NCBI GenBank assembly: GCA_029204225.1
Contig: CM055103.1
Coordinates: 41,333,368 to 41,397,367, forward strand
Direction of reading: 5' to 3'
Length of the DNA stretch: 64,000 nucleotides
From: Diphasiastrum complanatum
Taxonomy: Eukaryota; Streptophyta; Lycopodiopsida; Lycopodiales; Lycopodiaceae
The notes beneath the pieces were generated by a model, which was not told the origin of the DNA, searched no databases, and saw only the letters and a program-made list of their open reading frames with translations. The position numbers and the translations under genes are program-made. Below are positions 3,278-63,690 of the stretch, in pieces; position 1 is the stretch's first letter, and every line of letters begins with the position of its first letter.

Positions 3278-3328
<51 letters not shown>

Positions 3329-31700: not shown

Positions 31701-32462
31701 ACCATTGCAGTCGACTCTCATAGGGACTCATCTCCATGACTAGAGATGCATCTTGGTTCTTACATGCTCATACCATTTATGCATTCCTTGGACAGACTAA
31801 TGGATGATATAGGGTTCTCCCACCTCTATTTACATTATACAAGTGGGTCCCATCATAAAGCATGGTTCGGGCTTAGATCTATGACACGAGACAGTCCGAG
31901 TTGTTGACACATGGCACTAAAAATGTCAACAACATCGGCCCATTGTTTTGTCTCATGGTGAGGCTGTCACCTCAAGGTCATACCATTCTGGTCAAGTACA
32001 TTTCGACCTGGTATGTTGACTCAATAGGTCTGGCACGTGTGGGGAATGCCACATCATCATAGATCCACCAATAAATACAAGATAAGCCCCCACCTCTTTG
32101 AATCCTAACTTGGTGTCATTGCCTCAACATGATTTTACTTGATTTGAGGAAAATCACCTAACTTACAGGAACTTTGAAAGATCAACTCTACTGATTTTTT
32201 CCTGATCTGTACACACGTGGGAACAGCCTCTCACACGTGGGAACCATGTCTCATTCACATGGGGATGTTAGATCAATGAAATGGTGCCACATGGCAATTT
32301 TTATTAAAGGACGTAAAAAAACATTTTAAAATACATTATTTGATTCTATAAACTTATAAATGAACGCACGAAAATGAAAAGTTGATGATTGTGAGGAAAC
32401 TAGACGAATCCAAAATTATCAAAGGTAAAAAATTGGAACGGATGAGTTTGATGACCAAAGTT
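28741..32462. other. 3' flank of the helicase gene and gene-poor sequence
   Basis: No supported gene. The first few hundred bases must hold the helicase 3' UTR, but no decisive poly(A) signal stands out. Short frames at 29636-30300 and 30702-30914 look like chance. Sequence from about 31648 (TGTTGACACCACCTAG) to 32280 contains CCAATAAATACAAG and ACACACGTGGGAACAGCC/TCACACGTGGGAACCATG repeats. It has the feel of an LTR remnant, but no partner copy is present to test that. Confidence 0.4.
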
Positions 32463-32863
32463 TGAAAAATTGTCAACTAGTTTGGTTTAGTCATTTCTAG
32501 TTTAATTGGCAATTTTGGCCAATATGCATCTTAAACTTAGAGATAAACATTTTGGTGATATTTTAGTCTAAGTTCATATGCATTACCACTTTTAGAAAGT
32601 GTGGGAAAAGTAAGTAGGTCGAGTTTGGGAAGGTTCAAATTTGAATGTTTGGTAATTGAATCTAGTCCATTTATATCTAGAGTTTGGAATAGATCTAGAA
32701 GTTTTCTATTGTTGACGACAAACTTTCCCATATATGAACAAAGAATATCATTCATCATCTACTGGAAAGTGGCAGGCGCAATTTGGAGAAGGACATCTTA
32801 ATAGGTCAAGGACCTATATTAAATAATGTACAAGCGTGGGAAGAGATCAATTCTCTCTCTCTC

Positions 32864-34368: not shown

Positions 34369-35540
34369 ATAAGATTGAGATTTTTTTTAAAGATTTTAGT
34401 AGATGTGTTGTTCAAGTTAATAGTTTAAGTTGGCTAGATGATTTCAATTGCATCTTTGTTGATTTTTCACTGTTTTGGATGCCGTAAGGACAAGTAGCTA
34501 GCTGTAAGACGTCGCTAGATAGCCATGGAGAGTTTTTGAGTCTTTTCTTCAATATCAAAGTACAATGGCTTTCTCACTATAGAGAGAGGAAATCCAGTTT
34601 CTCAAGTTGCTTAAAAATTCTCATTTTTCCATAGAATCTAGTGTTCAAGAGGTGTATATCCTCAATAGCTAATGGGCGACCGTGGCTGAGGCCTTAGATC
34701 AGGCTAAAATTCGATCAAAAACAAGAAAGATTGATCAAAATAAAACTGTTGTATGATGGTTTTAGATAAATTCCACTATGTTAGAAAATCACAAAAGCTA
34801 CTTGGCATTGTCAAATAGTCAAAATTAAGGATCTCCAAATTAGTAGGATGCCATGTGGTATGATTTTGAGGAATTTCAGCACAATAAAATTCGCAAAACT
34901 CGGGAATGATTTACTCGCAAAATGTCAAAACACGTGCAAAATTACTGTGTGGTACGCTAATCTACAGTTAAAATGTGCTTGTCAACAATTGCAACATTAT
35001 GTGCACAACACACTAGAAATGAAAACTTTACACTCAAGCACTCTATAGCAATTACATTCACTAGTCTTAGGAACTCAAACCAAAATATGGTAGAATCTTG
35101 GAGAAGTTGCGATTTGAAAGTTTGAAATCTGTTGTTGATGTAGAAGTTATAAAAAAGACAGTAATGAAAAGAAAAAAAAAATTATCAAAGAAGAATATTG
35201 ATAACTTATCCTTACATAGCGACAATCGAAAGAAAATAATTCGAACATTCAAGTATGATTGTCATTATGTTATTAACTGATTTGTACTTGTTTATTTTTA
35301 CCTAGTTATATGCATTTTTAATTTGATTATGACAAAACAATATTTGGGTTTGATATGTGTGTTGCAGATAATGTTTAGTAGCAAAGGAATTAAAGATCAT
35401 TCATGCATTGGAGAATCTTTAAGTTATCCAAAAAAATTTGCAAGGACATTGATGAAAAATGATTGATTTGAAAAAAATGAAAAATGAAACTGCAGGATGG
35501 TTTTGAGTAAGGTGCAAACTTATTTGGATGCAAATGTGAT
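34369..35540. other. CACTA interior without a recognisable gene
   Basis: AT-rich sequence. Small Lys-rich frames (35098-35280) and a stretch near 35370-35460 reading FSSKGIKDHSCIGESLSYP could be exon remnants, but I cannot assign them. Confidence 0.3.
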
Positions 35541-35545
35541 ACAAA

Positions 35546-37160
35546 GTGCACGTGATCATGTTGGAATTAGCAGAAATGCTTATTTCACATTTTTTTAAAA
35601 TTGTACAAGAAACAATTTTTCAAGTAAAGATTAATGATCATGCTAATACTGTTCAAAGCTTTTCCATTCAAAAGACTTTAGCAAGCATGGTGGATGTGCA
35701 AGAGATATTGATGAATGAGGAGTGTAGGCTTCAATCAAGAGGAGGTGGAGCTACATCTCAAGTTGATGGAGAGGAGGCTATGTTCATCAAAGGCAAAGGC
35801 AAAAGCAAGTGGTCAAAGGGTCAAGATCAAAGTGTGCCTTCATCTTTTGATAAGAAGAATAAAGATAGGTCAAATTCGAAGTGATTCTATTGTGGAATCA
35901 AAGGGAATTTTGCTATTGATTGCTACACGAAGAAGAGAGATCAAGGTCAGAAACAAACCAACCTAACTATTGATGAAGATGGTGTTGGTGAACAAATCTC
36001 AAATGATGCTTTTGTTATGTCATCTTGCTTGTTGGCTAATGATGGCCCACATTGATCCTTGGTGGATTGATTGTGGAACTACATTGCACATGACATATCA
36101 TGAGGAGCATTACTCATCCTTGATGGCATTTGAAGGTGACAAGGAGGGTATCTACACGGCCAATGATGGTGAGTGTGCAATCAAAGGGATTGGCACAATT
36201 CCTATTTCCCTTTCTGCAAATAAGAATGTGAATTTGAGAGATGTTTTGTTCATTCCTTCCATTACTAGGAACCTTCTTAGTGTAAGTCAATTTCTTGATA
36301 AGGGATTCAAGGTGGAGTTTTTTGGTGGTGCTTGTTTGATCAAGAAAGAAGATGGATTGATTGCAAAAGGGAAAAGTCAAGGTAAGTTGTTCAAACTTGA
36401 TGCTTGTCTTGTTGCTAACTAAGTTGGATGTATGGCAAAATAAGCCATGTCAAATCAAGAAGTATATCATAAGAGATTGGGGCATCTCAACTTAAAGTGG
36501 AGGTGATGGCAAAAAGACAAGTGGTTCTTGGTCTTCCCAAATCTTTGTCAAGCAATAGTCATGTTTGTGAGCAATGTACACTTTCTAAGTCACATACGTT
36601 ACCTTACAAGAGATCTAAATCAAGATCAAGTAATCCTTTCCATCTTGTGCATTCGTATATAATTTCATGGTTTATCTACAATTGGCAATAGTGGTGCCAA
36701 GATGTATCTTACATTCATTGATTATTTTAGTAGATTTTGTCGGGTCTATCTACTAAAAAGCAAAGTTGAGGTGTTTGATGTCTTTGTCAAGTTAAAGATT
36801 GCATGAGAGGTTCAATTTTCTACAAAGATCAAGTTCTTGAGGAGTGACAATGGTGGATAGTACATATCTACCAAGTTCAAGGCCTTTTGTGAAGAACATG
36901 GGATCCAGAGGGAGTACACAAGCCAAAGGACACCACAAAAAAAAATGGAGTGGTCAAGAGGAAGAATAGAAATTTATGTGAAGGTGCCAAAGTCATGAGC
37001 TTAGGTGCTAATCTTCCTGAATCCTTTTGGGATCAAGCTTTGTTGTGTGCTAATTTTCTATGCAATAGATGGCCAAGTGTGGTATTGGATGGAAAAACTC
37101 CTTTTAAATTATTGTTTGGTAGGAGGCCGAGTGTCATAAGCTTTTCAAAACGTATTTAAG
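35546..37160 (+). pseudogene. Copia gag-protease-integrase fragment, heavily mutated
   Basis: Gag ends with GKSKWSKGQDQSV and a ruined zinc knuckle FYCGIKGNFAIDC, where the first Cys is replaced by Phe after a stop. Protease reads WWIDCGTTLHMTYHEEHY (DSGAT changed to DCGTT) and continues to VLFIPSITRNLLSVSQFLD. Integrase gives YHKRLGHLN, FIDYFSRFCRVYLLKSK, LRSDNGG and a late block SFWDQALLCANFLCNRWPS. At least eight stops or frameshifts occur. It stops at 37160, before RT. Confidence 0.85.
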
Positions 37161-37634: not shown

Positions 37635-37760
<126 letters not shown>

Positions 37761-39337: not shown

Positions 39338-39500
39338 AAACTTAACTGGAGATTGTGGAGCAATTAGAATCTCATGCAAAGGAGATGACTCTGAAAAATC
39401 CCTCGTTTTATTAGTATCTCTTCTTTGAAACACTCCCGTTCTGTACTTGAAAACTCGGACGTGTTGAATCGATACCGCATGGAAGTAGAGAACGATAAAA

Positions 39501-39692
39501 ACTTTAAGCAAAAAAATTAAGCATCGTCCGTCTGTATATATAGTGCAGATTCGAAATGATTGCATGCGTGATGGTTTGGAATTCCGAGGTTCGGATTACG
39601 CTGATGATTACTTCAAGATATTCAGAGGCTTGTCAATCAAATCCAATTAAATATCCATCGGTCATCAAAATGATTAGTCGATGTGGCTAATG
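39501..39692 (+). repeat. Inverted repeat partner of 42885-43066
   Basis: Bases from TTAAGCATCGTCCGTCTG to GATTAGTCGATGTGGCTAA match the reverse complement of 42885-43066 at roughly 80%. In the minus-strand copy it would encode part of the transposase-like gene (GLEYRDTDYGDYLI). Here the related frame GLEFRGSDYADDYF is also visible but is broken after about 25 codons. The same segment recurs at 45025-45205 in unit B. Confidence 0.75.
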
Positions 39693-41032
39693 ACGACCAC
39701 AATTAATTTTTACAAAAGTATGGTCACATCTACAATTAATTCTACAAAAGTATGGTCACATCTACAATTAATTTCTGAAATTGACAAGGTTATGTTATAA
39801 ATATCCAACCTTTTTTTATATCCAATCATTATAATTTCGAAAATTTTCAACCGTCATTATTTCATCCAATAGCGAATCGACGCACATATATTGCATGTGT
39901 AAACCATAGGGGCTATTCTCATGTGTTGAACCGATATTGGACGATATATGAAAGATCAGAACTTGATTCGATAGATTCTTATTAGCTTTGGACAATATGA
40001 AAAGTCTACTGAATCAAGCTTTGGTCATGCATAATGTCGTCCAATAATTTCGACAATTTTAAATTTTTTTTTCCCTGCAATAGTGATTCGACGCGCGCAG
40101 TCCAACGGAAAAATCACTTTCTTCTCCCATGCACGTTGATCCGATATATGAGACACACTGAAAATATACTGGAACGCAATATGAACCATAAAAGCTTGCT
40201 TCGGCTGAATTTTTTAAGCTTTGGATGTATGAGGATTCTCCCGAAGCAAGCTTTGATGATTCATAATACATTCCAATAGCGAATCAACGCACGTAGTCCA
40301 AGTTGAATTTTTTTTTTTTTTGGGATGGGCGAGCTGATCCGATATTGGATTTGTCATACCGGAGTATTTAATCAACGAGCACCTATTTGATCTGTTCCTT
40401 TGAAACACTTGTCCTCTCGCATGGAATCGATATCGGCTCTTTCAAAATGCTCCACCTTATGAAAATCTTCTGAATAAACAATTATCTCAAAAGAAAAATT
40501 TTCATCTTTATGGTGCTTAAATAGGACGAGAGACTGTAATAATTGCCCTCGTACACGTTTTTCAATGATGTCCATTTAATATTTGTTTATTATTTGTTTA
40601 ATGATGATTCGGAGAGGCTAGTGATAGACTATTTAATGTATTCCGGCGTAGGTACAAATTTTAGGTTCAGGGCTAATGATGATTCGGACAATCTAGTGAT
40701 AGACTATTTAATATCTTCCGACGTAGGAACAAATTTGTCTCTCTCTGAATGGTGGATAAATATAGGCTGTGCTCCTCAATTCATTATTTGACAAATGTAT
40801 GGCTGTGATCAATAGGAATAGGCTATAAATATGGGAACCACTTTTCATATTTCAATTCCATGATCTTTTATTTTGAACTTTTTCGTCATTTTGTTTCTTT
40901 CTTTCTCGCGATATCGAATCAATGCGCGCCTTCACATACAGTGCATGGTCGGATTCATTCAGGTGCGTTGAAGCGATATCAGCTTCTTCGACCGAAATCA
41001 TTCAGTCACGTTGAATCGATATCAGATTCAAT

Positions 41033-42581
41033 ATGGCTAGTTTCTCCATGTCCTTAGATAACAAACTTCTGGATTTTTTGAATGCCAGTGACATTCTATC
41101 TGAGAAATTAGAGCATTTTTTTCAGAAATTTTTTTGCTCCATTTGATATCAATAAGCTAGTTTATCAGAATTGTTATAATTTAATTTCTCTTCTTGATAA
41201 TTTTTCTCAGATTATTAGTACTCATGTTCAGGATATAGATAGTTTTTGTTTCGTTCATTTTCAGGACCTTGTGCATTCACAACCATCCTCTAAGCATAAA
41301 CACAATAGAAAGTACTCTAACCTGCATGACCATTTCAAAAGAAATATATAATGTGGTATCCACAAAAGAATATGTCACCTTCTAATCAAAGGAATGACTT
41401 TTGTCTTTTACAAATTTGTTGAAATTTCAGATGACGAGTCTGTTGAATCTTCTACTGTTCCATTGATTGAAGCATCTTCATCTGTTTCAGTTGATGTAGA
41501 TGATGCAGATACTGATATAGGGGTTGAAGCTGAAGCATCTATGGCTTCAGATTATCAGAAAACTCTCCTTCGTTCTATAATCCTTTGTGATTCTCTTCCA
41601 TCTGCATCTCTTGTTAATCAATTAACTCTACTCAATGTTTTCTTATATTTTATAAATAATGAAAGTTATATTTCATTTAATGATATAAAAGATGTTTTGA
41701 TTTTGAGAGAGGATGAATCCTCTTGATTTTTGCACAAACTTTATCATAATTTTCTGACATTGTTGATTACACATATGATGACCTTGAAAGTGAGATAGAT
41801 TATGATAAAGATGGCAATTAGAAATATGGCAACGAGGCCTTGGAGGCCATGATTGAAAAATCTAAAGCCTATGAAAAAACTTTGCCTACATAGGAGGAAT
41901 TTTTGGAATTCCAAAAAAAATATCCCCCAAGGACTCGATATACCTCCTCCGGAAATGTAGAGGCCATTTGGAGGACATGACATTAGCAGAGCAAACGTCG
42001 TTGAATACGATGATTATGATCAAGTACGTAGATATTATATTGGTATTGATATTGTTCAATTTTCTTATTTCAAACACTGTGTTAAAGTATGAGTTTGCAG
42101 TGTTATGTATCATTCTAAATTTATTTTCTTCACTCGTTTACAGGATGCTATTGAAATAGATGCCTTTGGTATGAGACATGGAGGCGTCCGAGGTGTATCA
42201 GCCAGGAGAAAGGATGTGTCTCTATGTCATTATTTGAAAAACTTTCAAAATAATGAGATTTGTATATATGATTCAACTTTTAATCCATATGCAACCACTG
42301 TCATTATGGCCATCAAATCATTATCAGTTTGTTTAGGAGGCCATAAGTACGCAAGAGGAACATATAAAATATTTTTTTGTGAAAAGAGATTTGGCAATTA
42401 AAATATTGGGTTATACTCCCAATGAGACTACAAAAAGATCATCTGCAATGGCCCTTTATCGGGTTACATTGATATGAGCAATAGGAAAAATTTAGAATTT
42501 TTGGATCCATATGAAAGAAGATTATTCCTTCATGACAATACCATCCGTCTGAATCTTGAAGAGGATGATGATGATAATTAA
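41033..42581 (+). pseudogene. Unit A gene 1: spliced plus-strand gene of unknown family
   Basis: Starts ATGGCTAGT (MASFSMSLDNKLLDFLNASD). A later exon after GAAATTTCAG (about 41430) reads DDESVESSTVPLIEAS and DTDIGVEAEASMASDYQ. The frame then passes stops and shifts (FSDIVDYTYDDLESEIDYDK, EALEAMIEKSKAYEKTLP). A clear intron (GTACGTAGAT at 42022 to GTTTACAG at 42144) joins VEYDDYDQ in frame to DAIEIDAFGMRHGGVRG, NNEICIYDSTFNPYATTV and LGGHKYARGTYK. The C-terminus is probably YERRLFLHDNTIRLNLEEDD. Unit B has the same exon-intron layout. No domain is recognised. Disabled here by at least four lesions. Confidence 0.5.
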
Positions 42582-42610
42582 ACAATTTTCTGTATTAAAT
42601 TTTTGATATA

Positions 42611-44000
42611 TTACAAGGATCTCTCTTTTGTTATGAATTTGAATGCCTTTCGAAAAATCGTAACATTTGGCGAGTTTTTCGCTTGATATCTAGATTGTAC
42701 TCTTCTATAAAACCATTGAAAAAGTTGAACTAAATATTTATTTCTTGAATTGTGTCCTCCATGATTTGTGGCTCTATAAAATGCTCCCCTTGCTTGCCAA
42801 TGAGATTTTTCCATGCCTTGTGATGATCAGATACTTAAGTTCCAATATTCCTTTGCAAAATAAGTTGCATGATTACAATAGTCATTAGCCATATCGACTA
42901 ATCATTTTGATGACTGATGAACATTTAATTAGGATTTGATATTCAAGTCTCAAAATATCTCGAATTAAGTAATCACCGTAATCTGTGTCTCGATATTCCA
43001 AACCACCACGACTGCAATCATGTCGCATTTGGCACTATATAATCAGATGCACGATGCTTAAATTTTTTGCAATTAAAGTTTCATTCGTTCTTTTTTTACA
43101 TGAAGTATCGGTTCAGCATGTCCGAAGCAACTGACCTGCTTACCGTCTTTAGCCACAGACTCCGGTTTATGATTCCATGCTAGTAGAATATGCAGGTAAA
43201 TAAGGTTTTCAATAATACGAACCTCAGCATGCAATGTGCATATGTGAACATTTTTTAATGGAATTGGCAAAACACTTTTCATATTTGGATCTTCAGTTTT
43301 TTTTGTTGGGCCAGTGTTTGTTGATCGTCCCAAATTCATATTGTAACAATCCTTTATGCAATAAAAACATGGATGCTTTGATGTTGCCCCATGAGAGACA
43401 TTATACATACATTTTAATGTTTTGAAATCCCCTGTAAGGTGCCATTGAATTTGAAAACTTCCATGGTTTTTGACTGTAAATTTTTTACCCTCCAAATGTC
43501 TCTTTATAATCTCGCCATAATTTGTTTTTGAAAATATCCATGAAAGTATTTTACAGTCCTCTTCAAGACCTGTAGAGAAGCAAGTAATGCATGACATGTC
43601 AATAAAAACTGGCAAGGTATGAAATGTTAATAACAATATTCTAAATGAAAATTGAAATGTATACATGGAATGCCGCCAAGCACCATATGTGATTTTCCGA
43701 TTGAACACTAAACATTCGATCATCTGTATATGAAATTTTGTTCATCAAAGTGACACTCCCTCGTTCCAACTTTTGACTTTTGATGATTTCAGATTCATCC
43801 AATTTTATTACAGTAATGATCTTTCCATTTACTTGATGTTCGTCTAGTTTATAGAATCAAATAATGTATTTTAGAACATTTTCAATATCAAGGAAAATAT
43901 TATTGCAATCGTTATAATTGAGCTCACTATATTCTGATTTGTATAATTCAGTTATATGAAGTGGTTAGGCCATTATAATAATTTCTTGTTAATCTTACCC
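42611..44000 (-). pseudogene. Unit A gene 2: transposase-like spliced gene
   Basis: From 44000 downward: ELYKSEYSELNYNDCNNIF, LDEHQVNGKIITVIKLDESE, FSVQSENHIWCLAAF. An intron (GTATACATTTC to TCTACAG, about 43660-43570) follows. Then GLEEDCKILSWIFSKTNYGE, LTGDFKTLKCMYNVSHGATS, KHPCFYCIKDC, VLPIPLKNVHICTLHAEVRI, DCSRGGLEYRDTDYGDY and a last exon GMEKSHWQARGAFYRATNHGG. The blocks GDxKxL...G....PCxYC, IPLxNVxICTLH and QGxEKxHxxxR..THGG recall a widespread eukaryotic family of transposon-associated proteins without a settled name. That link is from memory and unproven. Several stops, and the shared 185-bp inverted repeat inside it, indicate decay. Confidence 0.5.
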
Positions 44001-44960
44001 GATTGCGTTCAACTTCATCTCAGAATGTATGCGTTTTCTGGAATTCTTTGCGACTAATTATTTGTCTGATAATTTTCGATGCTCAATTTTTTTTGGCTAC
44101 GTAATCACTGTAGTACTGGCGATTTCAAAGTTAGTTCCTATAAGTTCAAATGTGATTTCTATCACTATTGCTTTGTTTGAAATTGATAGGCGTAGTCATG
44201 CATTGTGAAAGAGGAAGATAGTTTATTCTACCATGCACACAAAGTTTTCTTTCTAGACACACGAATTATTTTTATTCGTTTCTTTTCGAGCTAGACCTAT
44301 CTTCTACACACTTCTTTCCGACAGGACTGGACAATGATGAATGAGAATGATGGTGTGGGTGTGTCTCGGATCACTGAAAACTATGTGGGACCTCTTTCAA
44401 TCTAGTCCAAACAACTTAACAAGAGGAAAAAATTGAGTGCAGCAGCAAGAGAGCAAGCAAAATTACAGTCGTTGGTGTGTCTAATGCAAAGATTGAACAA
44501 ACATGCAACTGCTTAAACCCACAAGTTAGAACATGCGTTATTTTATTCTAATTATTGAATATTAAATTATAGAAATTTTCTATATTATTTGTATCTTGAA
44601 GTCTCCATTGTTTTGCTTTAGATCACTCAACTGTTTGATTTGTTTTAATTTGTTTGTGCTTGATAGGCTGCTTCCGATTTGTTGTTGCATCAGGGTTAGT
44701 AGTTTAGTATGATTTGTTTGGACGCCTAAACTAGCAGCCTCCTTGACCCCATCATGTGATTGGGATTCCACAAAGGTGGATTTGTATTGTTTGCTTATTC
44801 CACGCCATTACTATCCAATATCGGATCAACGAGCGAAGAAGGAGAACTCGATATCAGAAGTCTAGTCGAGCGCGTTGAACCGATACCTGAACTTAGACCA
44901 AACTGATACCTGAGAGTGGATTGGCACGCACAAGTAGCATAATGTAGGTAGGTTGCTTTT

Positions 44961-47900
44961 GACGCGCTGAATTGATACTGCATGGAAGTAGAGAACGATA
45001 AGAACTTTAAGCAAAAAAATTAAGCGTCGTCCATCTGTATATATAGTGCAAATCCGAAATGATTGCATACGTGATGGTTTGGAATTCCGAGGCTCGGATT
45101 ACGCTGATGATTACTTCGAGATATTCAAAGGCTTGTCAATCGAATCCAATTAAATATCCATCAGTGATCAAAATGATTAGTCGATATGGCTAATGACGAC
45201 CACAATTAATTTCTACAAAAGTATGGTCACATCTACAATTAATTCTACAAAAGTATGGTCACATCTACAATTAATTTTTGAAATTGACAAGGTTATGCTA
45301 TAAATATCCAACCTTTTTTGATATCCAATCATTATAATTTCAAAAAATTCCAACTGCCATTATTTCATCCAATAGCGAATGGACGCGCATATACTAATGT
45401 GTAAACCATAGGGGCTATTCTCACGCGCTGAATCGATATTGGACGGTATATGAATGATCAGAGCTTGATTTGATAGATTCTTCTTAGCTTTGGATGGTAT
45501 GAAGAGTCTACTGAATCAAGCTTTGGTCATGCATAATGTCATCCAATAATTTCGACAATTTTCAAAAATCTTTTTTTCCTACAATAGCGATTCGACGTGC
45601 GCAGTCCAAGGGAAAAATCACTTTCTTCTCCTAGGCATGTTGATAGATATCTGAGACTTACTGAAAATATATTGGAATGCAATATAAACCATCAAAAATT
45701 GCTTCGGTTGAATTTTTTAAGCTTTGGATGTATGAGGATTCTCCCGAAGCAAGCCTTGATGATTCATAATGCATTACAATAGCGAATCAACGCGCGTAGT
45801 CCAAGTTGAAAATTTTTTTTTTTGGGATGGGTGCGCTGATCTGATATCCAATTCGCCATACCGGAGTATTTAATCAACGCGTACCTAATTGATTTGTTCC
45901 TCTGAAGCACTTGTCCTCTCGCGTGGAATCGATATCGGCTCTTTCAAAATGCTCCGTCTTATGAAAATCTTCAGAATGAACAATTATCTCAAAAGTTTCG
46001 TCTTTATAGTGCTTAAATAGGACGAGAGACTGTAATAATTGTCCTCGTACACGTTTTTCAATGATGTCCATTTAATATTTGTTTATTATTTATTTAATGA
46101 TAATTCGGAGAGTCTAGTGATAGGCTATTTAATGTATTTCGGCATAGGTACAAATTTTAGGTTTAGGACTAATGATGATTCGAAGAATCTAGTGATAGAC
46201 TATTTAATATATTCCGGCGTAGGTACAAATTTGTCTCACTCTGAATGGCGGATAAATATAGGCTGCGCTCCTCAATTCATTATTTGACAAATGTATGGCT
46301 GTGATCAATAGGAATAGGCTGTAAATATGGACACCACTTTTCATATTTTGATTCCGTGATCTTTTATCTTTCTCTCTCGTGATATCTAATCGACGTGCGC
46401 CTTCACATACAGTGCACGGTCGGATTCATTCAGTCGCGCTGAAGCGATATTAGCTTCTTCTGACGTGTGCTCGTGGAAAATTTCAGGCTCGTCAAAATGA
46501 TATTGGATCAACGCGTGCACTGTTGTTCAGTCCTCGACCGAAATCATTCAGTCACGTTGAACCAATATCGGATTCAATATGGCTAGTTCCTCCATGTCCT
46601 TAGATAACAAACTTCTGGATTTTTTGAATTCCAGTGACATTCCATCTAAGAAATTAGACTATTTTTCAAGTAATTTTTTTGTTCCCTTCGATATCAATAA
46701 ACTAGTTTATGAGAATTGTTATAATTTAATTTATCTTCTTGATAATTTTTCTCAGATTATTAGTACTCATGTTCAGGATATAGTTATTTTTGTTTCGTTC
46801 ATTTTCAGGACCTTGTGCATTCACAACCATCCTCTAAGCATAAACACGATATAAATTACTCTAACTTGCATGACCATTTCAAAAGAAATATATACTCTGG
46901 TGTCCACAAAAGAATATATTGCCTTCTAATCAAAGGAATGACTTTTGTCTTTTACATAATTGTTGAAATTCCAGATGATGAGTCTGTTCAATCTTCTACT
47001 GTTCCATTGATCGAAGCATTTTTATCTGCTCTAGTTGATGTAGATGATGCATATACTAATATAGGGGTTGAAGCTGAAGAATCTATGGCTTCAAATTATC
47101 AGAAAACTCTCCCTCGTTCTATAATCCTCTCTGATTCTCTTTCATTTGCATCTCATGTTAATCAATTAACTCTACTCGATGTTCCCTTACATTTTATAAA
47201 TAATGAAAGTTATATTTCATTTAATGATATAAAAGATGTTTTGAATTTGAGAGAGGATGAAATCTCTCGATTTTTCCACAAAATTTATTATAGTTTTCTG
47301 ACATTGTTGATTACACATATGATGATCTTTAAAGTGAGATAGATTATGATAAAGATGGCAATTGGAAATCTGGCAATGAGGCCTTGGAGGCCATGATTGA
47401 AAAATCTAAAGCCTATGAAAAAACTTTGCCTACATAGGAAGAATTTTTGGAATTCCAAAAAAAATATCCCCCAAGGACTCAATATATCCCCTCCGGAAAT
47501 GTAGAGGCCGTTGGAGAACATGACATTAGCAGAGCAAACGTCGTTGAATACGATGTTTATGATCTGGTATGTAGATATTATATTGGTATTGATATTGTTT
47601 AGTTTTCTTATTTCAAACACTGTGTTAAAGTATGAGTTTGCAGTGTTATGTATCATTCTAAATTTATTTTCTTTATTCGTTTACAAGATGCTATTGAAAT
47701 AGATGCCTTTGGTATGAGACATGGATGTGTCCGAGGTGTATCAGCCAGGAGAAATGATGTGTCTCTATCTCATTATTTGAAAAACTGTCAAAATAATGAG
47801 ATTTGTATATATCATTCATCTTTTAATCCATATGCAACCACTGTCATTATGGCCATCAAATCATTGTCAGTTTGTTTAGGAGGCCATAAGTACGCAAGAG

Positions 47901-48515
47901 AAACATATAAAATAATTTTTTTGGAAAGGTATTTGGCAATTAAAATATTGGGTTATACTCCCAATGAGACTAAAAGTTTGAAATTGATAGGCGTAGTCAT
48001 GCATTGTGAAAAGATAGTTTATTCCGCCATGCACGAAAAGTTTTCTTTCTAGACAAACGAATTATTTTCATTCGTTTCTTTTCGGGCTAGACCTATCTTC
48101 TACACACTACTTTCCAACAGAACTGGGCAGTGATGAATGAGAATGATGGTGTGGGTGTGTGTCAGATCGTTGGAAGCTGTGTGGGACCTCTTTCAATCTA
48201 GTCCAAACAACTTAACAGGAGGAGGAAATTGAGCGCAGCAGCAAGAGAGCAAGCATAATTACAATCGTTATTGTGTCTAATGCAAAGATTGAACAAACAT
48301 GCAACTTGCATTATTTAATTCGAATTATTGAATCGTAAATTATAGAAATTCTCTCTATTATTTGTATCTTGAAGTCTCCATTATTTTGCTTTAGATCACT
48401 CAATTGTTTGATTTGTTTTGATTTATTTGTGCTTGATAGGCTGTTTCCAATCTGTTGTTGCATCAGGGTTCGTAATTCATTATGATTTGTTCGGAGGCCT
48501 AAACTAGCAGTTTTG
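44961..48515. mobile_element. Unclassified two-gene element, unit B (internally deleted)
   Basis: Colinear with unit A from its first base to the equivalent of about 42420. It then jumps (near 47972) to the equivalent of 44178 and continues to the CCTAAACTAGCAG shared end (44729 in A, 48509 in B). About 1.75 kb carrying nearly all of gene 2 is missing, so B is a non-autonomous deletion derivative. Nucleotide identity to A is around 90% by eye. Confidence 0.65.
46579..47985 (+). pseudogene. Unit B gene 1: second copy of the plus-strand gene
   Basis: Reads MASSSMSLDNKLLDFLNSSD, FVPFDINKLVYENCYNLIYL and, from 46815, HDHFKRNIYSGVHKRIYCLL, PDDESVQSSTVPLIEAF and INNESYISFNDIKDVLNLRE. The 5' part is more open than in A, with 91 codons before the first break. 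The same intron is present (GTATGTAGAT at about 47568 to TTTACAAG at 47687), although the acceptor G is shifted compared with A. The 3' exon keeps RLQDAIEIDAFGMRHGCVRG and continues past the deletion point. Some substitutions between A and B look synonymous or conservative, which hints at past coding constraint. Confidence 0.5.
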
Positions 48516-48679: not shown

Positions 48680-49510
48680 AGTGATAGAAATCACATTTGA
48701 ACTTATAGGAACTAACTTTGAAATCGCCAGTGCTACAACGATTACATAGCCAAAAAAAATTAAGCATCGAAAATTATCAAACAAATAATTACTCGCCAAG
48801 AATTTCAGAAAACGCATACATTCTGAGATGAAGCCGATTGCAATCGGGTAAGATTAACAATAAATTATTATAATGACGGAATGTTCAAAGTAGTTGGCTA
48901 ACCACTTCATATAACTGAATTATACAAATCAAAATATGGTGAGCTCAATTACAACGATTGCAATAATATTTTCCTTGATATTGAAAATGTTCTAAAATAC
49001 ATTATTCAATTCTATAAACTAGACGAACATCAAGTAAATGGAAAAATCATTATTGTAATAAAATTGGATGAATTTGAAATCATCAAAGGTCAAAAGTTGG
49101 AATGAGAGAGTGTCACTTTGATGAACAAAATTTCAGTTATAGATGATCGAACGTTTAGTGTTCAATCGAAAAATCACATATGGTGGTTGGCGGCATTCCA
49201 GGTATACATTTCAATTTTCATTTAGAATATCATTATTAACATTTCATACCTTGCCAGTTTTTATTGACATGTCATTACATTACTTGCTTCTCTACAGGTC
49301 TTGAAGAGGACCATAAAATACTTTCATGGATATTTTCAAAAACAAATTATGGCGAGATTATAAAGAGACATTTTAAGGGTGAGAAATTTACATCGAAAAC
49401 TATGGAAGTTTTCAAATTTAATGGTACCTTGTAGGGAATTTGAAAATATTAAAATGTATGTATAATGTCTCTCATGGGGCCACATCAAAACATCCATATC
49501 TATACAAACA
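48680..49510 (-). mobile_element. Inverted partial copy of the unit A gene 2 region
   Basis: Reverse complement of about 43355-44175. It keeps the gene 2 segments for ELYKSKYGELNYNDCNNI, the same intron (GTATACATTTC to TCTACAG, here 49202-49298 reading plus) and GLEEDHKILSWIFSKTNYGE, so gene 2 reads on the plus strand here. It ends at 49510, where a Copia gag fragment starts. Confidence 0.7.
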
Positions 49511-49514
49511 TCTA

Positions 49515-49698
49515 TAGCCCTTCCGAGACACCACTCATTGTGGCATGTACCAATTCAACGTCCCTAATTGGTTCTCCAATTGCCACAAGTTGATCTCTCA
49601 GCTCCTTTATCTTGGTGAAGAAAGAGCCCAATGATTCACTTTCTTCCATCCTTACTGCGTTCAATCTCGACTTCAAGAACATGGCCCGAGCTGGATTG
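49515..49698 (-). pseudogene. Copia gag fragment
   Basis: The minus strand encodes ARAMFLKSRLNAVRMEESES, LGSFFTKIKELRDQLVAIGE and PIRDVELVHATMSGVSEGL. This matches the UBN2 gag pattern (LxxxFxxLKMxExESVxxFFxRVKELxxQLxxxGEPI). It lies directly after the LTR without primer-binding site or leader, so those were deleted. Confidence 0.8.
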
Positions 49699-50520
49699 TG
49701 TTGAATTTCACACGTGTGGATTGTCCACTACATGTACTTGTGATCTCCTAAGGTGTGTAGATGCACCAAGATCAAGACTAGATTGAGATTCAAGATCTAT
49801 TTTTGATTCTATGGCAAAAACACACTACTACATGCATTCAATCATTTCCAACTCTCACTCACATGTGTGGGAAGTGTTCCAAAAGTATTCTAAGTAAAAA
49901 CAAGCTGCTCTCCTCAAGTAGAGAGAGAAAAACCATCATGAGCTCTCGAGTAGAGAGAGAAAGCTAGAAATTCAATGACACTCAAAATCCACTCAATCTC
50001 AAAATCAAATTAGATCCAAATGAGTACAATGATACTAGTAGATCCATGAGCTACCACTATGCTTAACTATGATTGGATCACACTTTGCCACCTCTTAATT
50101 CTATTGGACCATTGATCCATGCACCTCTTAATTCTATTGGACTATATTCAAGCACACCTCAAATTCCTATTGGACCACACATGGTTCCACCTCTAAATCC
50201 TATTGGACCTCTTAAACTTCATCAAACAAAAGCATTACACTTGTCTACACTCTAATTGGCACAAGTTTGGCCTCCTACTCTATTTTGGCTCAATAGTGGC
50301 ATTACAAGTGGAAATGGATAATTTGCCATCTATGCCAAATTTGACCCTATCAATATCCTACACCTAAATGCTTGACTATGAAATTCTATGAGACCCCTAT
50401 ATCAAACATTTTTATTTACTTTACAATTCTCCACATGTGGGAACATCCTCCACACATGTGAGATTCACTTACAAACTTCTATCATAAAAAATACCAAGCT
50501 AGATTTTTGCCAATTTCTCA
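49699..50520 (-). repeat. Copia LTR, minus strand
   Basis: On the minus strand it starts TGAGAAATTGGCAAAAATC after a TTGAGGAGGAG polypurine tract (50523-50532). It ends CACACGTGTGAAATTCAACA at 49699. The end region matches 24780-24850. It contains a short minisatellite (50085-50212). Confidence 0.7.
50085..50212. repeat. Minisatellite inside the LTR
   Basis: Four to five imperfect units of about 25-35 bp share CACCTCTTAATTCTATTGGACC. The plus-strand frame over it is repetitive (PPLNSIGP, APLNSIGL, PPLNPIGP) for that reason alone. Confidence 0.75.
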
Positions 50521-51645: not shown

Positions 51646-51724
51646 GGGAATATGTGCAAAGACTTTTGATAGTAATTTGAATTGATCATGCTAGATTCGA
51701 AATCTTACAGTACCTTCACCTTCA

Positions 51725-51960
51725 ATGGTGTGAGTACTATTGTCACCAAGATGAACAAATTTCTTTGTGTTGTAACGCGTGTAAGAGTTTTGTGGAAGAT
51801 CCATCAAATGGATGTGAAGTCCACATTTTTAAATGGTGACTTAGAGGAAGAAGTTTACATGGTCCAACCACAGGGCTTTATGCCAAAAGGGCAAGAACAG
51901 AAGGTATGTAAACTACACAAAGCACTTTATGGCCTTAAGCAAGCGCCACGCGCAATTTGT
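51725..51960 (+). pseudogene. Copia reverse-transcriptase fragment
   Basis: Encodes [29 protein letters not shown] and [17 protein letters not shown], the RT block with the first catalytic Asp (QMDVKxAFLNG) and the LYGLKQAPR motif. It is cut after PRA. Opposite in orientation to the fragment on its left. Confidence 0.9.
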
Positions 51961-52182
51961 CCCTTAACGTTGATTTTCTCCAAAGTCCATTGACCAACCT
52001 CACCACATAGTATTGCCTTTGCCAGGCAAGGCCAAAAGAAAACCCTCCTTTCAATCTATAAGGATGAAAAGACCATCACTAGAAAAAGGAATGAACCTAT
52101 GAAAGTAAGATTAAATACCTATCAACTAGAAAAGGGCTTTCATTATATAAGAATGGAAAAACTCATCACTTAAAAAAAGGTG

Positions 52183-55980: not shown

Positions 55981-56378
55981 AAGTGTTTTCTTGTGTGTAG
56001 TATGCTTAGGGTTTGGATCTTGCTTACGATAATGGAGGTAATGCATTTTTGGCAGGAGACAATTAAGCTTGTTATCGAAAATTCATATCCAATTGCAATA
56101 CAATGTGTCCTCCACCATGGAAATGGAGATCATAGAAAATAAAGAGCCTCATAGAAAACGTGACTCATAGAAAAGATCATAGAAAAGGTGGGTCATATAT
56201 TTTCAAAAATGATGTATACAAAAAATTATATTACATAATACAAAATCACATTGTTCAAAATCTATGGATTTTAAACTTTGATGGATGTTCCAAAGTCTTT
56301 GCATTTTATATGCTTTTGCTGCCTTGCTCTTAGTTGCACAAGAGCCGATTCACTAAGAAATAGAAAAAATGAAAATTT

Positions 56379-57197
56379 TCATATGGCATAATGCACCTTT
56401 ACACCATTCAATCGAAATTGATAGTACTTAGGTAGATTGAATTGCAACATGTCTAATTCTGATCGAATGTGATTGAGACTCCAATCTTCCTCAGCCTCAA
56501 CCATTGCAAGAATTTTGTCATTTCTTTTCACTGTTATTTGAAGTTGCTCTTGAGAGTTTATTTCAAAATCTTGATCAAGTGGCTTCAATTCATTTTTGTA
56601 TTTTATCCATCTTCTATAATACAACAGCAAAGTGAGCATTTGTTTTTCGATGTGATATCTGAATGTCATTGATGAGCAACATACTTTGCACTCAACTTGC
56701 TGATTTTGTTTCGTATCCCAATCATCATCCAACAACTCGACGATTATTTCAGCACTCAAGTCCTTACAAATAAATATTATTTTCGTTCTCTGAACATTGC
56801 ATTTGGAAAAAAAATCAACAAAAATAGTAAAAGGTAGATACCAACATAATCTATTATTCTTTGAATGAGTGCTAAATTTTAATATACTCTGAATATCAAT
56901 ATATGGTCTAGATCGAAAACTTTCTGAAATTGCTGCATCAGGAGAAATCCATTTTTCACTCGAAAAATCCGGTAGAGGATATGGCTCAAATCTACCCACT
57001 AAACCATTTTTATCAAGAAAATAAGTGTGATCATAAAAGAAAACGCCTGACTCTAAAAGTGATTTTGGAGAACAACCTTTATATTGTAGAATACTGATAT
57101 TCAAATTTATAACATCAATTTTTCCTACAATTGATTGAACTGTTTGCCATTCAACGAAATTTGATGGATACAAATATGCAAAACCAACAAGATGCAT
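56379..57197 (-). CDS. ORF of unknown family, 272 codons, source of the triplicated fragment
   Basis: An intact minus-strand frame. It starts MHLVGFAYLYPSNFVEWQ and includes CSPKSLLESGVFFYDHTYFL, DDDWDTKQNQQVECKVCCSS and, at the end, LQITVKRNDKILAMVEAEED and WSLNHIRSELDMLQFNLPKY. The last 50 residues have the strand-turn-strand-helix feel of a ubiquitin-like fold, but I recognise no family. Upstream on the same strand (57314 down) a short frame MATHNRRPRGTIDAINICNE leads, after one stop, to the ATG, so the first exon may lie there. The third repeat unit keeps an extra 284 bp of probable coding sequence at this junction, which suggests that this copy lost part of its 5' coding region. Could be a host gene remnant or a transposon gene. 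Confidence 0.45.
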   Translation of the reverse strand: MHLVGFAYLYPSNFVEWQTVQSIVGKIDVINLNISILQYKGCSPKSLLESGVFFYDHTYFLDKNGLVGRFEPYPLPDFSSEKWISPDAAISESFRSRPYIDIQSILKFSTHSKNNRLCWYLPFTIFVDFFSKCNVQRTKIIFICKDLSAEIIVELLDDDWDTKQNQQVECKVCCSSMTFRYHIEKQMLTLLLYYRRWIKYKNELKPLDQDFEINSQEQLQITVKRNDKILAMVEAEEDWSLNHIRSELDMLQFNLPKYYQFRLNGVKVHYAI

Positions 57198-57769
57198 AAA
57201 GATCCATTGATATTTTCAATATATTCTTGGTATCCATTGATATTCTGCATTTTTTTCATTGCAAATATTGATTGCATCAATGGTTCCTCTTGGTCTCCGA
57301 TTGTGTGTAGCCATTAGTCCAAAATATGTGAACGAAAGCTGAGAACAGAGAGAATGAAGAGAATGAGAGGTAAACCTAAGAATGACAATAAAAAATAACA
57401 GATAGAATGAAGAGAATGAGAGGTATACCTAAGAATGACAAGAAGTTCCTAAACCATAAGGATTAGTTAACTACAGTTTACGACTATTGACGTCAAATCA
57501 ACCTTGAGTGTACAAAGATGGGCAGCAAAAGAGTATTTGGGCAGTAACTGTGGTCCAATCACAATCGTTTGTTTTGCCCGGGCGGGATATTTGAAAATCA
57601 CAAAAATTTGGCCAAGAAAGTTAAATTTTTTTTTCGTTCGTCAACCACTGTTACAATTCATCATAGATGGACACCATTGATTGAGATACATAAGCGTTGA
57701 AAGCGTACAAAGTCAAAAATCACATCTTGACAAAGGGCCCATTTTGAGTTCTAATATCCCCTAATGCAT

Positions 57770-58412
57770 ACCAGTCAAGTCAACTACAAAGGCTTCTGAT
57801 TTAGCCCAGGTCTTTGTTGAAAGATTATTTAGGCTTTATGGACTACCAAGTGATATAGTTAGTGATAGAGATCCTAAATTTATTGGTCACTTTCGATCAA
57901 CTGTATTCCATAAGCAACAAACCTCACTTAGTTTTGGTTCTACTGATCATCCTGAATTTTATGGCAAGACTGAGAGAACTAATCAGACTATGGAGGATAT
58001 GTTGAGAACATATGTTTGTCACAGACAATCTAAGTGAGAAGATTATATTCCTTTGATTGAGTTTTCTTACAATAGTAGAAAACATTATGCTACTAGTTAT
58101 AGTCCATTTATGTTGATGCACGGTTTTCAACCTAGATCTTCGATAAATGTGGAGACGAAGTCTGTTAAGATCTAAAAAGTTGCGGATTTCTTGCATGATA
58201 TCATTAAATGTTGCAAGTGGCCCGTGATTGTATATGGAGTGGTCAGGATAGAGTTAAGAACTATGCCGATATCCAGAGGTCTCCCAGAGATTTTAAAGTT
58301 GATGATTGAGTATATCTTAGAATACCTAAAGATTCTAAGACTATGCGTACATGGAAGCGTTATAAATTGTCTACCGAATATTTTGGACCATTTCGGATTA
58401 TTCGAAAAATTT
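57770..58412 (+). pseudogene. Gypsy integrase fragment, tandem copy 1
   Basis: Encodes MPVKSTTKASDLAQVFVERL, FRLYGLPSDIVSDRDPKFIG, KTERTNQTMEDMLRTYVCH, YSPFMLMHGFQPRS and YKLSTEYFGPFRIIRK. These are the integrase core with the second Asp (VSDRD) and the Glu (KTER), then the GPY/F module. Stops at RQSK-stop-EDYIPL and VKI-stop-KVADF and a frameshift after HDIIK are shared by all three copies, so the element was already dead when it was duplicated. It fuses into the unknown ORF at 58403. Confidence 0.85.
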
Positions 58413-59852: not shown

Positions 59853-60478
59853 GGTAGAGGATATGGCTCAAATCTACCCATTAAACCATTTTTATCAAGA
59901 AAATAAGTGTGATCATAAAAGAAAACGCCTGACTCTAAAAGTGATTTTGGAGAACAACCTTGATATTGTAGAATACTGATATTCAAATTTATAACATCAA
60001 TTATTCCTACAATCGATTGAACTGTTTGCCATTCAACGAAATTTGATGGATACAAATATGCAAAACCAACAAAAATATCACAAGAAAAATTTAATTTAAA
60101 GATAATGTTAATACTAAAGAAACTAAATCTGAATATGTACATTCCAATTGAATATGTACAATTGCATTTTCTGCTATCATTTGGATTCAAATCATGAATG
60201 TTGAGCTCTTTGTGAAGATAAGCATGCTGAACTAAAACTTCCGTGATAGATTGACCAGCAGGTGATACTATGAAATCCATTATCCTGCCTTTCCAAGAGC
60301 TTCTATAGATGTTATCTGATCTTTTTCTTTTCTGGAATGAGCCTTTTGCGGAGGGATGCATAAAGATCCATTGACATTTTCAATATATTCTTGGTATCCA
60401 TTGATCTTCTGCATTTTTTTCATTGCAAATATTGATTGCATCAATGGTTCCTCTTGGTCTCCGATTATGTGTAGCCAT
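59612..60478 (-). pseudogene. Third copy of the unknown ORF, with extra 5' coding sequence
   Basis: From the ATG at 60478: MATHNRRPRGTIDAINICNE, one stop, then MHPSAKGSFQKRKRSDNIYR, SSWKGRIMDFIVSPAGQSIT, EVLVQHAYLHKELNIHDLNP and, after an AT-rich stretch that looks intronic, VGFAYLYPSNFVEWQTVQSI. Copies 1 and 2 lack the middle part. The joins have no GT-AG borders, so they lost it by deletion rather than by splicing. It then runs into antisense Gypsy sequence like copy 2. Confidence 0.6.
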
Positions 60479-60929
60479 TAGTCCAAAATATGTGAACGAA
60501 AGCTGAGAACAGAGAGAATGAAGAGAATGAGAGGTAAACCTAAGAATGACAATAAAAAATAACAGATAGAATGAAGAGAATGAGAGGTATACCTAAGAAT
60601 GACAAGAAGTTTCTAAACCGCAAGGATTAGTTAACTACAGTTTACGACTATTGACGTCAAATCAACCTTGAGTCTACAAAGATGGGCGGCAAAAGAGTAT
60701 TTGGGCAGTAACTGTGGTCCAATCACAATCGTTTGTTTTTCCCGGCGGGATATTTGAAAATCACAAAAATTTGGCCAAGAAAGTAAAAATTTTTATTCGT
60801 TCGTCAACCACTGTTACAATTCATCATAGATGGACACCATTGATTGAGACACATAAGCGTTGAAAGCGTACGAAGTCAAAAATAGCATCTTGACAAAGGG
60901 CCCATTTTGAGTTCTAATATCCCCTAATG

Positions 60930-62815: not shown

Positions 62816-63238
62816 GTGTGAAACTCATTTCAAATGATTGTTACATAAAGAAAAAAAAAAAAGTTATTGCTAAAGCAGTAGGGAAAATATGGGCCCTTTA
62901 ATAAATTTCACTTTAGAGAGAGGTTACGTAGAGAGAGAATGCGAACCGATAACTCCTAGTCGTCGTTTTTTGAGTTTTCGGCCTTGCCCTATGTTTAACT
63001 GGTATGGTTAACTTCAGACAATAGCTAGTTAAGCATGAGATGTAATAAATTCTCTTCATGCTCATTCCAAAATTCAGGACTAGAGCTTTAAGATTGAAAA
63101 TCTTGGTGTGCTCAATGCAAGAACTGAAGCAGGAGTAGCAGAACTTTTAAAATCAATGTATGCTTATAGTGAAATATGAGGCGGGAAGATTTTTCAATGC
63201 GACATAAACATTACAAAAGTAAGGTATGCTAGATCTAT
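62816..63238. other. No feature recognised
   Basis: Non-coding AT-rich sequence with a poly-A run near 62855. Confidence 0.5.
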
Positions 63239-63690
63239 TCATGTTGATTTACTATAGTTTGAAGCCTTACGGATTGTAGCTTTTAACAATGCGGCAATGT
63301 TCCATTTGCATGTTGCTCTTCCTATGGAATGCACTCCAATTATTAAGAAAAATTCGAAAGTTGTAAAGAATGCTGCTGCAATAGTTAGAGAATAAGCAGG
63401 AGGGAAAGGCCTCTGCAGAAGCTCGAAGTGCACGGAAATGAGCTTGAGCGAAAAGAGGACCAGCCAAAGGATCACCTTGACGAGTACCTGCTGTAGACTG
63501 GATAGTGGAAAGATCCCCAGAGCGCACATGGTGACTGTAAAAGAGAGGAGTCTCAGTAGCATAGAACAACCGCACAAATGGGATAAGCTGAGCCAACTCA
63601 CCACCAACTGCGCGCAACTCCTAAAAGATCACAGCTCTAGACCGAACTCAAACTGTATGCAAAAGGATGACCTGGAATTTAGTTGACGGT
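63239..63690 (-). pseudogene. LINE-type reverse transcriptase fragment
   Basis: The minus-strand frame reads LRAVGGELAQLIPFVRLFYA, LSTIQSTAGTRQGDPLAGPL and FAQAHFRALRASAEAFPSCL. The GTRQGDPLAGPLFA stretch is the RT block before the catalytic aspartates of non-LTR retrotransposons (GxxQGDPLGxxLFA). The FADD motif that should follow is replaced by NYCSSILYN, so the copy is broken there. It is the only clear non-LTR RT in the window. Confidence 0.7.

Follow-up and report, generated by a model that had tools for sequence, protein, structure and literature searches.

The window, i.e., the whole 64,000-nucleotide stretch of Diphasiastrum complanatum DNA that was analysed, contains two direct units, A and B, which start at 39458 and 44961, ~5.5 kb apart as the sequence-only reading had it, and are 89.5–93.1% identical. 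Both units carry a plus-strand gene (gene 1), and unit A also carries an opposing minus-strand gene (gene 2), whose frame ends at 42611, ~30 bp from the gene 1 frame end at 42581; both genes had been seen in that reading. It further took unit A as a full element and unit B as its deletion derivative and non-autonomous partner, which is contradicted by the blastn layout of the two units on a reference copy of 9913 bp (L029:3132 to L026:8044).

Unit A spans ~1987–5191 and 5696–6572 of L026. Its left part (39455..42873, plus strand, blastn identity of 84–91%) corresponds to the first of these spans and comprises a non-coding stretch, gene 1, and the end of gene 2, with a gap at ~40186–40455. Searched by tblastn with the majority protein of 16 copies, gene 1 exon 1 (41033..42044, plus) is broken, with five stops in one piece, and exon 2 (42144..42581, plus) changes frame at ~42370–42430. 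Gene 2 is represented on the minus strand by an exon with the catalytic Glu (QGMEKSH; 42614..42895; tblastn 81%), an exon with the second Asp and CxxC (43148..43567; 91%), and an exon with the first Asp (IKLDESEI; 43668..43964; 91%, one stop), and part of the gene is replaced by an inverted copy of L026 1981–2216 (42892..43131, minus, blastn 72%). Unit B (44745..47976, plus, blastn 84–88%) spans ~1772–4754 of L026, with a gap at ~45690–45955. Its gene 1 exon 1 (46579..47587, plus; tblastn) is likewise broken, with three stops in one piece, and is followed by exon 2 (47687..47971, plus; tblastn 92%).

Comparison of the units and fetched copies identified a segment common to A (44175..44737) and B (47976..48510), located after the last element stretch of each unit and without a match in the other fetched copies. 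An inverted gene 2 fragment (48843..49504, plus; tblastn and blastn) adjoins unit B and contains, with stops, the first-Asp exon together with the beginning of the following exon. Neither unit has a detected terminus. Because of the shared end segment, the inverted transposase fragment, and the purely internal coverage, the autonomous/non-autonomous relation fails. The arrangement resembles the product of a local duplication accompanied by rearrangements, and, judged by their alignment to the reference, A and B are decayed, broken inner pieces of a longer, many-copy element.

Two fragments of a histone H3 gene lie next to these pieces, both on the minus strand. One is a remnant of the linker/C-terminal region at the left edge of A (39341..39453, L026 1220–1339; blastn and tblastn), and the other is the first 23 codons, with one stop, cut at the A/B joint (44740..44808; tblastn E = 6e-5, and translation). 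The sequence-only reading missed this gene because only its first 23 codons remain in the window. Parts of other copies lie further downstream on the minus strand: a 5′ end (59887..60929, blastn 85–90%) with the terminus CATTAGGGG at 60929, partly repeated at 57766–57005 and 59206–58447, and a 3′ end (62886..63393, blastn 91%), of which the last ~21 bp are unmatched and which includes the gene 2 start (63294–63392; tblastn).

Structure and Copy Number of the Whole Element

Many dispersed copies with common termini were found: in the 1.74-Gb genome, each end gave more than 1500 first-look candidates, of which 40 were scored. In one search there were 1517 candidates, and all 40 that were scored reached at least 90%. 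The inverted ends are ~35 bp long (CATTAGGGG...CCCTAATG), and eight copies bounded by listed ends, two of which are duplicates of each other, measure 8091–11319 bp. Among matches reaching the query end, 10 5′ ends and 10 3′ ends were sampled, and all share the same final base position and have CA..TG termini (10/10 and 10/10). The flanks of these ends look unrelated, except for one common to L048 and L050, and show no common target by eye; the sampled termini contain no CACTA core. The genes are in the order H3 (minus), gene 1 (plus), and gene 2 (minus). Short tandem repeats occur in the non-coding stretch of the element.

Of the features that the sequence-only reading proposed to look for, the common termini are present, while a target-site duplication of 2–5 bp beyond chance is not found in eight paired ends. 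Identical flanks of 3–5 bp occur in 0/8 pairs, of 2 bp in 1/8 (0.5 expected), and of 1 bp in 5/8 (2.0 expected), and none of the eight has an 8-bp duplication; these counts come from old copies, with four of the eight pairs resting on gapped alignments. Since no 2–5 bp duplication exceeds chance, the element is not filed in the CACTA/RAG clade. As read from its ends and gene order, it is a three-gene DNA transposon of 8–11 kb with terminal inverted repeats.

Gene 1 and the Transposase-Like Gene 2

The element is, as the sequence-only reading described it, mobile, with two spliced genes in convergent orientation, one of them transposase-like; the statement that gene 2 follows no recognisable pattern is not borne out, as a D-D-C(2)C-H(4)H-E layout is seen in it. 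Profile searches with both genes gave, as the sequence-only reading had anticipated for an undescribed system, no Pfam match above the cut-off and only weak sub-threshold rows, such as HisKA_3 at 21.6 bits (cut-off 24) in the N-terminal part of gene 2. Gene 1, in which the 16-copy majority has an intron before exon 2, matches no Pfam family above the cut-off, the hAT transposase domain included. Gene 2 has no match in Pfam, NCBIfam, or the PDB, and a scan of IMG/VR with the transposase found no relative. L091, where gene 2 of the L067 copy would be expected, also gave no match.

The acidic residues and cysteines of gene 2 are conserved amongst copies (D 13/13, D 11/12, C 11/12, C 11/11, and E 11/13), and the two histidines of H(4)H are each kept in 10/13. 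There are two candidates for the H(4)H motif, HICTLH and HILLHH, the second of which has the RAG1 spacing. The CMCT clade is outlined in PMC12730594 as having a DDE transposase with C(2)C and H(3–4)H between the second D and E, and this layout is found in the gene 2 sequence. The element resembles CMCT transposons and RAG1 in its CA..TG ends, the C(2)C after the second Asp, and an H(4)H with the RAG1 distance of 20 residues to the catalytic Glu, but it lacks a 2–5 bp duplication beyond chance and significant overall similarity, and it adds gene 1 and the H3 gene. Gene 2 aligns best locally with RAG1 over the H(4)H-20-E segment, which ranks 1/1326 amongst anchored E pairs; anchored in the same way, the second Asp ranks 84/228. 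In the overall Smith-Waterman comparison, 84/1000 shuffles scored at least as high, and hhalign gave a score of 1.2, with 50 shuffles reaching up to 9.5. An AlphaFold model of the part from the second Asp to the Glu is too poor to use (pLDDT 39.8). Based on the motif layout, gene 2 presumably encodes a DDE-type transposase of the CACTA/Transib/RAG1 layout, predicted to cut and move the element.

A Divergent Histone H3 Encoded by the Element

The third gene encodes a protein with a histone fold (Pfam Histone PF00125, E = 2.8e-20, 73.2 bits against a cut-off of 26.4, for the unaltered 404-aa L067 genomic frame). PDB H3 chains match the family majority at 2.6e-20, with majority residues 1–131 aligned from residue 1 on H3 3–134, and H3 is indicated rather than H2A, H2B, or H4, as 60/60 displayed PDB matches (the best 60 of 176) are H3-type chains. 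The core is identical to canonical H3 at 37/81 positions without a gap, and 9 of 13 checked core residues are kept (K56, K64, R69, R83, H113, R116, T118, K122, and D123). In the tail, K4 is present in 36/37 copies and K9 in 0/38; K9 and S10 are replaced, and beyond residue 14 the tail is a proline-rich stretch. By these residues, the protein is a divergent H3 and not a canonical one, in which a modifiable tail with K4, K9, and K27 would be expected. CENH3 proteins have a divergent N-terminal tail and a longer loop 1. This identity was rejected, as the majority tail starts with MAxTKQTAR and the core aligns without a gap across loop 1. The histone is fused to a C-terminal extension with a conserved region; an Ulp1-type protease, suspected there from an HW motif, has no Pfam support at E values up to 10. 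An AlphaFold model of the protein is too poor to use (pLDDT 34.4). Its helices fall near the H3 helix positions, and Foldseek lists nucleosome entries in its top six rows, but at E values of 0.81–1.6, so neither was counted as evidence.

The H3 gene is present in 13/20 fetched 10-kb loci, always on the minus strand and upstream of gene 1, and missing in the other seven. At least one of the 150 listed H3 matches lies within 15 kb of 11 of the 66 distinct listed 5′ ends, and all 11 have one such match 3.4–4.8 kb inside, on the opposite strand. Stops interrupt 121 of the 150 listed matches and 29 have none; open frames of 351–412 aa remain. In a diverged (~70%) gene 2 lineage, 0/3 copies have H3 at the expected offset, so the gene may be confined to a part of the clade.

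The dN/dS of the H3 fold is 0.33 among 34 copies, compared to 0.59–0.68 in control frames. Between the two subfamily majorities, there are 11 synonymous changes per 60.8 sites versus three nonsynonymous changes per 203.2 sites (Fisher p ~1e-5). An earlier estimate from fewer copies gave a dN/dS of 0.73, no lower than that of other genes. Purifying selection has apparently acted on the histone fold during the divergence of the element family.

Comparison with Known Elements

In Dothideomycetes, hAT elements with 8-bp duplications are described as having captured a host H3 gene, which RIP inactivated (PMC6710886). As presented there, these are also high-copy DNA transposons of ~9.5–10 kb with an H3-like sequence, but the H3 examined here is strongly diverged, selected, and fused to an extension, and its carrier is a plant element with another transposase and no 8-bp duplication. 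The VANC proteins of VANDAL elements bind element DNA and have demonstrated anti-silencing activity, and in the account of PMC10398659 the likeness extends to a plant DNA transposon, an accessory gene directed against silencing (supposed in our case), and short tandem repeats in a non-coding stretch. Here, in contrast, the accessory protein is a histone and no Mutator-type transposase match is found in Pfam. TET/JBP genes on fungal DNA transposons, as treated in PMC12730594, encode epigenetic enzymes acting on DNA methylation and share with the present case an epigenetic protein carried by a transposon, with a function deduced from conservation; the protein here is a histone and not a DNA-methylation enzyme, and the host is a plant and not a fungus. 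VANC (PMC10398659) and TET/JBP (PMC12730594), as reported in these texts, were counted as precedents for an anti-silencing reading. In the open-access PMC literature, covered by titles and abstract openings, no account of a histone H3 gene belonging to a plant transposon was found.

Potential Role of the Histone Variant

Transposon silencing in plants is maintained by H3K9 methylation. In the proposed mechanism, the gene 2 transposase would cut and move the element, and the H3 variant, encoded divergently from gene 1, would pair with H4 and enter nucleosomes on or near element DNA. As the variant has no K9, it would be unable to carry H3K9 methylation, and thus the element may stay expressible and resist silencing. 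We regard the account as a whole, of a terminal-inverted-repeat transposon with a CACTA/Transib/RAG1-layout transposase and a selected H3 variant without K9 directed against silencing, as evenly balanced between being right and wrong. The stronger version, in which a plant transposon has its own silencing-proof nucleosome, the K9-less H3 breaks the loop between H3K9 methylation and DNA methylation, and the transposase lineage has dispensed with the usual 2–5 bp duplication, is tentative and somewhat doubtful. The loss of K9 can also reflect drift if the protein serves a different role.

One such role would be in transposition, with the H3-like protein incorporated in nucleosomes or tethered to them, guiding the transposase to chromatin or building its complex. 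RAG-type recombinases read H3 tails via RAG2, and this, together with the retention of K4 and the fusion to a conserved C-terminal region, is consistent with such a function; however, it leaves the loss of K9 and of the remaining tail unexplained, and no target common to the flanks of the sampled ends is visible by eye, so we consider it rather unlikely. Passive capture of a host gene (transduplication), amplified with the element and functionless in it, is improbable. It would account for the prevalence of stops amongst the listed H3 copies and for the missing H3 in all three copies of the diverged lineage, and PMC6710886 describes an H3 gene that fungal hAT transposons took up and amplified before RIP inactivated it. 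Nevertheless, a core reduced to 37/81 identity has kept the histone profile, with purifying selection between subfamilies, the position of the gene is fixed where it is seen, and long open frames persist. The element could also be an ordinary CACTA/EnSpm-type transposon without recognisable profile matches, in which H3 is one of many accessory fragments. The termini and the D-D-C(2)C-H(4)H-E layout are shared with the CMCT clade as characterised in PMC12730594, but the lack of a 2–5 bp duplication beyond chance, of a CACTA core, and of a Pfam transposase match, as well as a partner gene of unknown family, make this classification doubtful.

The transposon counter-measures cited above act, as their sources describe them, on DNA methylation or through proteins that bind DNA. 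A selected, transposon-encoded histone variant, if true, would be a different route, in which the substrate of silencing is itself replaced. The element would offer a direct test of the need for H3K9 in keeping a transposon family silent, and it would mean that histone variants can originate elsewhere than in the histone genes of the host.

Structure and Termini of the Element

Comparison of 20 loci of 10 kb around element copies, together with 5 kb upstream of four of these loci, placed the two direct units of the window (unit A, starting at 39458, and unit B, at 44961) within a larger element. The direct repeat described in the sequence-only reading was borne out, with 89.5% identity between 39458–40992 and 44961–46464 and 93.1% between 40985–42434 and 46531–47975. 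Its view of unit A as a full unit and of unit B as a deletion derivative was not upheld, as alignment of the fetched copies indicated that both represent the middle of the element only; judging from these alignments, the window holds a tandem of internal element pieces. The two units have in common a segment with no match in the other fetched copies (44175–44737 and 47976–48510), unit A contains an inverted insert (42892–43131), and an inverted gene 2 fragment lies at 48843–49504. The histone H3 gene described below is left in the window only as its first 23 codons, with one stop (44808–44740, minus strand).

The suggested genome search with unit A yielded many further copies: 40 matches to a 1-kb query were scored, all with at least 90% identity, of 1517 first-look candidates in the 1.74-Gb genome, and matches were spread over many large contigs. 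The retroelements of this genome mark it as that of a plant. Exact common termini were also recovered. The unbroken reference copy (L029:3132 to L026:8044) is 9913 bp long, with inverted ends of approximately 35 bp that are 86% alike. Most copies begin with 5'-CATTAGGGGATATTAGAACTCAAAATGGGCCC and end with ...GGGCCCATTTTGAGCCCATATTTTCCCTAATG-3', L029 differing at a few bases. Another ten ends of each kind (5' and 3'), sampled from matches reaching the query end, stop at the same terminal base. The flanks of these sampled ends are unrelated by eye, except for one common to loci L048 and L050; among seven other 5' ends, one flank is common to L035 and L036. The pair L033/L034 (contig C14) is a 98–99% sibling of the reference copy and was ruled out as a separate jump because both of its flanks are identical to those of L029/L026, which indicates duplication. 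Counting this duplicate, at least eight bounded copies of 8091–11319 bp emerged when all listed ends (66 at the 5' side, 63 at the 3' side) were paired.

Other copies in the window have 5' ends at 57766, 59206, and 60929 (minus strand) and a 3' end near 62886, the last ~21 bp of which have no match. The stretch 56031–61800 is made up of three tandem units whose starts are 1440 and 1723 bp apart; in every unit an element 5' end, terminus included, is joined to what we take to be a Gypsy-integrase-like stretch. The arrangement suggests that the element inserted into a retrotransposon and was later multiplied in place. Frames that are presumably Copia-like (gag/pre-integrase and reverse transcriptase) occur at 35970–36422, 49512–49727 (minus strand), and 51682–51993, and a perfect (CT)60 run at 37637–37757.

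In a 16-copy majority, gene 1 (plus strand) starts with a 358-codon open frame, which an intron ending in a CAG acceptor separates from a second exon; the majority protein had no match in Pfam. Between the H3 gene and gene 1, the non-coding sequence carries a short tandem repeat of 31–32 bp (39699–39776 and 45202–45276 in the window; 2226–2299 in L026). In VANDAL elements, VANC likewise targets tandem repeats located in non-coding sequence.

Transposase Class of Gene 2

The N-terminal part of gene 2 (minus strand) gave only coiled-coil-like, sub-threshold Pfam matches. The exons encode, in order, a first Asp (IKLDESEI) and a second Asp (HLAGDLK), with CLYC starting 20 residues later, and the last exon encodes QHILLHH followed after 20 residues by the E of QGMEKSH. 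The residues of this predicted catalytic layout are kept in 13/13 (D), 11/12 (D), 11/12 (C), 11/11 (C), and 11/13 (E) cases, and the H(4)H before E in 10/13 and 10/13; a second H(4)H (HICTLH), 38 residues past CLYC, is kept in 10/11 and 11/11. PMC12730594 describes the CMCT clade (CACTA/Transib/RAG1-type transposases) as having C(2)C and H(3–4)H between the second D and E, with CA..TG ends in most cases and duplications of 2–5 bp. The element has both the C(2)C and H(3–4)H arrangement and the CA..TG ends. Among the eight paired ends examined for target-site duplication, identical flanks of 3–5 bp were found at none, of 2 bp at one, and of 1 bp at five (2.0 expected). The pairs L029/L026, L095/L096, L054/L097, and L039/L098 represent bounded copies, and the other four (L030/L019, L015, L024, and L040/L017) were joined via gapped or insert-containing alignments, so that their ends may not belong together.

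The best local alignment of gene 2 to RAG1 pairs HILLHHATYFAKEYGSLSIWSSQGMEKSH with a 29-residue RAG1 segment; anchored on E, it scored 22 and ranked first of 1326 E–E pairs (next, 13). The plain Smith-Waterman score was equalled by 84 of 1000 shuffles, the second Asp, used as anchor in the same way, reached a rank of only 84 of 228, and hhalign detected no similarity between gene 2 and RAG1. Predicted structure models, both for gene 2 and for the H3 protein described below, were unusable. From its residue layout, gene 2 looks as if it would work like the CMCT clade transposases, and membership in the clade is not claimed.

A broken, diverged relative of gene 2 (about 72–74% DNA identity) occurs in the window at 32317–32463 and 34953–35625. 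Another lineage of gene 2, about 70% identical (e.g., C1:87420644 and C10:62387226), has open frames of 426–506 aa with stop-free matches and looks younger than the family in the window. The protein encoded at locus L015 (1305–688, minus strand) shares about 25% identity with the N-terminal portion of gene 2 (MTKLYHLHVDLSPEYAPL...) and would belong either to a second, distantly related family of elements of this kind or to a relative in the host.

A Divergent Histone H3 Gene in the Element

The H3 gene (minus strand) lies upstream of gene 1 in divergent orientation, and was found in the same place and on the same strand in 13 of the 20 loci; it was not found in L010, L015, L017, L018, L020, L021, and L024. 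At least one of the 150 listed H3 matches lies within 15 kb of 11 of the 66 distinct listed 5' ends, and in 11/11 an opposite-strand match lies 3378–4780 bp inside (with an additional same-strand match at 11.7 kb in one case). Among the H3 matches listed, those within 15 kb of a 3' end (four of the 63 listed ends) are likewise all inside and on the opposite strand. Some copies with equal end-to-H3 distances may be duplicates. The H3 copies L067–L070 sit in element DNA, since their alignment to L026 (1665–1800 of 1801 bases, 81.7–83.5%) extends to sequence outside the frame. No H3 was found at the expected offset in three copies of the about-70% gene 2 lineage.

Stop-free matches number 29 of the 150 listed. 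Unaltered genomic frames include L067 (404 aa from Met; Pfam Histone E = 2.8e-20), L068 (412 aa, start codon changed; 1.5e-15), L070 (351 aa; 2e-19), and a 170-codon stretch in L028 (5.7e-21), and the family majority sequence matched 176 distinct PDB sequences (best E = 2.6e-20), with the alignment starting from residue 1. Against a canonical H3 reference, the core aligns without gaps (37/81 identical) and, of 13 core residues checked, K56, K64, R69, R83, H113, R116, T118, K122, and D123 are kept and R63, K79, C110, and R128 are changed. In the tail, K4 is kept in 36/37 copies, position 9 is G (17), V (14), I (5), or L (2) and never K (0/38), position 10 is H in 37/38, and past residue 14 the K14–K36 region has given way to a proline-rich stretch. 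The fold is followed by about 230 conserved C-terminal residues, which had no family match in Pfam.

Among 43 copies with the H3 region, 41 remained after removal of two exact duplicates, 34 of them with at least 150 codons. The dN/dS was 0.33 for the fold, 0.57 for the tail, and 0.41 overall, compared to 0.59–0.68 for shifted frames and the antisense of the fold; these control values imply that dead copies, through drift, account for much of the spread. When the majority sequences of two subfamilies, with G (17 copies) or V (12 copies) at position 9, are compared, the fold shows 11 synonymous changes over 60.8 sites versus 3 nonsynonymous over 203.2 (Fisher 9e-6), and the whole 24 over 123.5 versus 15 over 386.5 (Fisher 2e-7). 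A smaller set (20 loci, upstream pieces, and the window), computed without frame control, gave 0.73 for H3 (12 copies; C-terminal part 0.65) and 0.56–0.71 for pieces of genes 1 and 2, values that alone are weak support for selection.

Proposed Role of the Element-Encoded H3

On these comparisons, the H3 is encoded by the element, occupies a fixed place where seen, has been under selection, and lacks K9. No case of a plant transposon carrying a histone was found among the titles and opening abstract lines listed for open-access PMC articles in searches aimed at transposon-borne histones. In readings that rival the one given below, the element may have captured H3 passively, as in fungal hAT elements (PMC6710886), or its H3 may act in target choice or complex assembly.

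Plants keep transposons silent through a loop that couples H3K9me2 to DNA methylation. An H3 without K9, in which most of the checked nucleosome-core residues are kept, would be unable to take part in this loop. We infer that the variant would be expressed, targeted to and incorporated at element DNA, with K4 still modifiable, and that its effect would be to hold the DNA of the element open.
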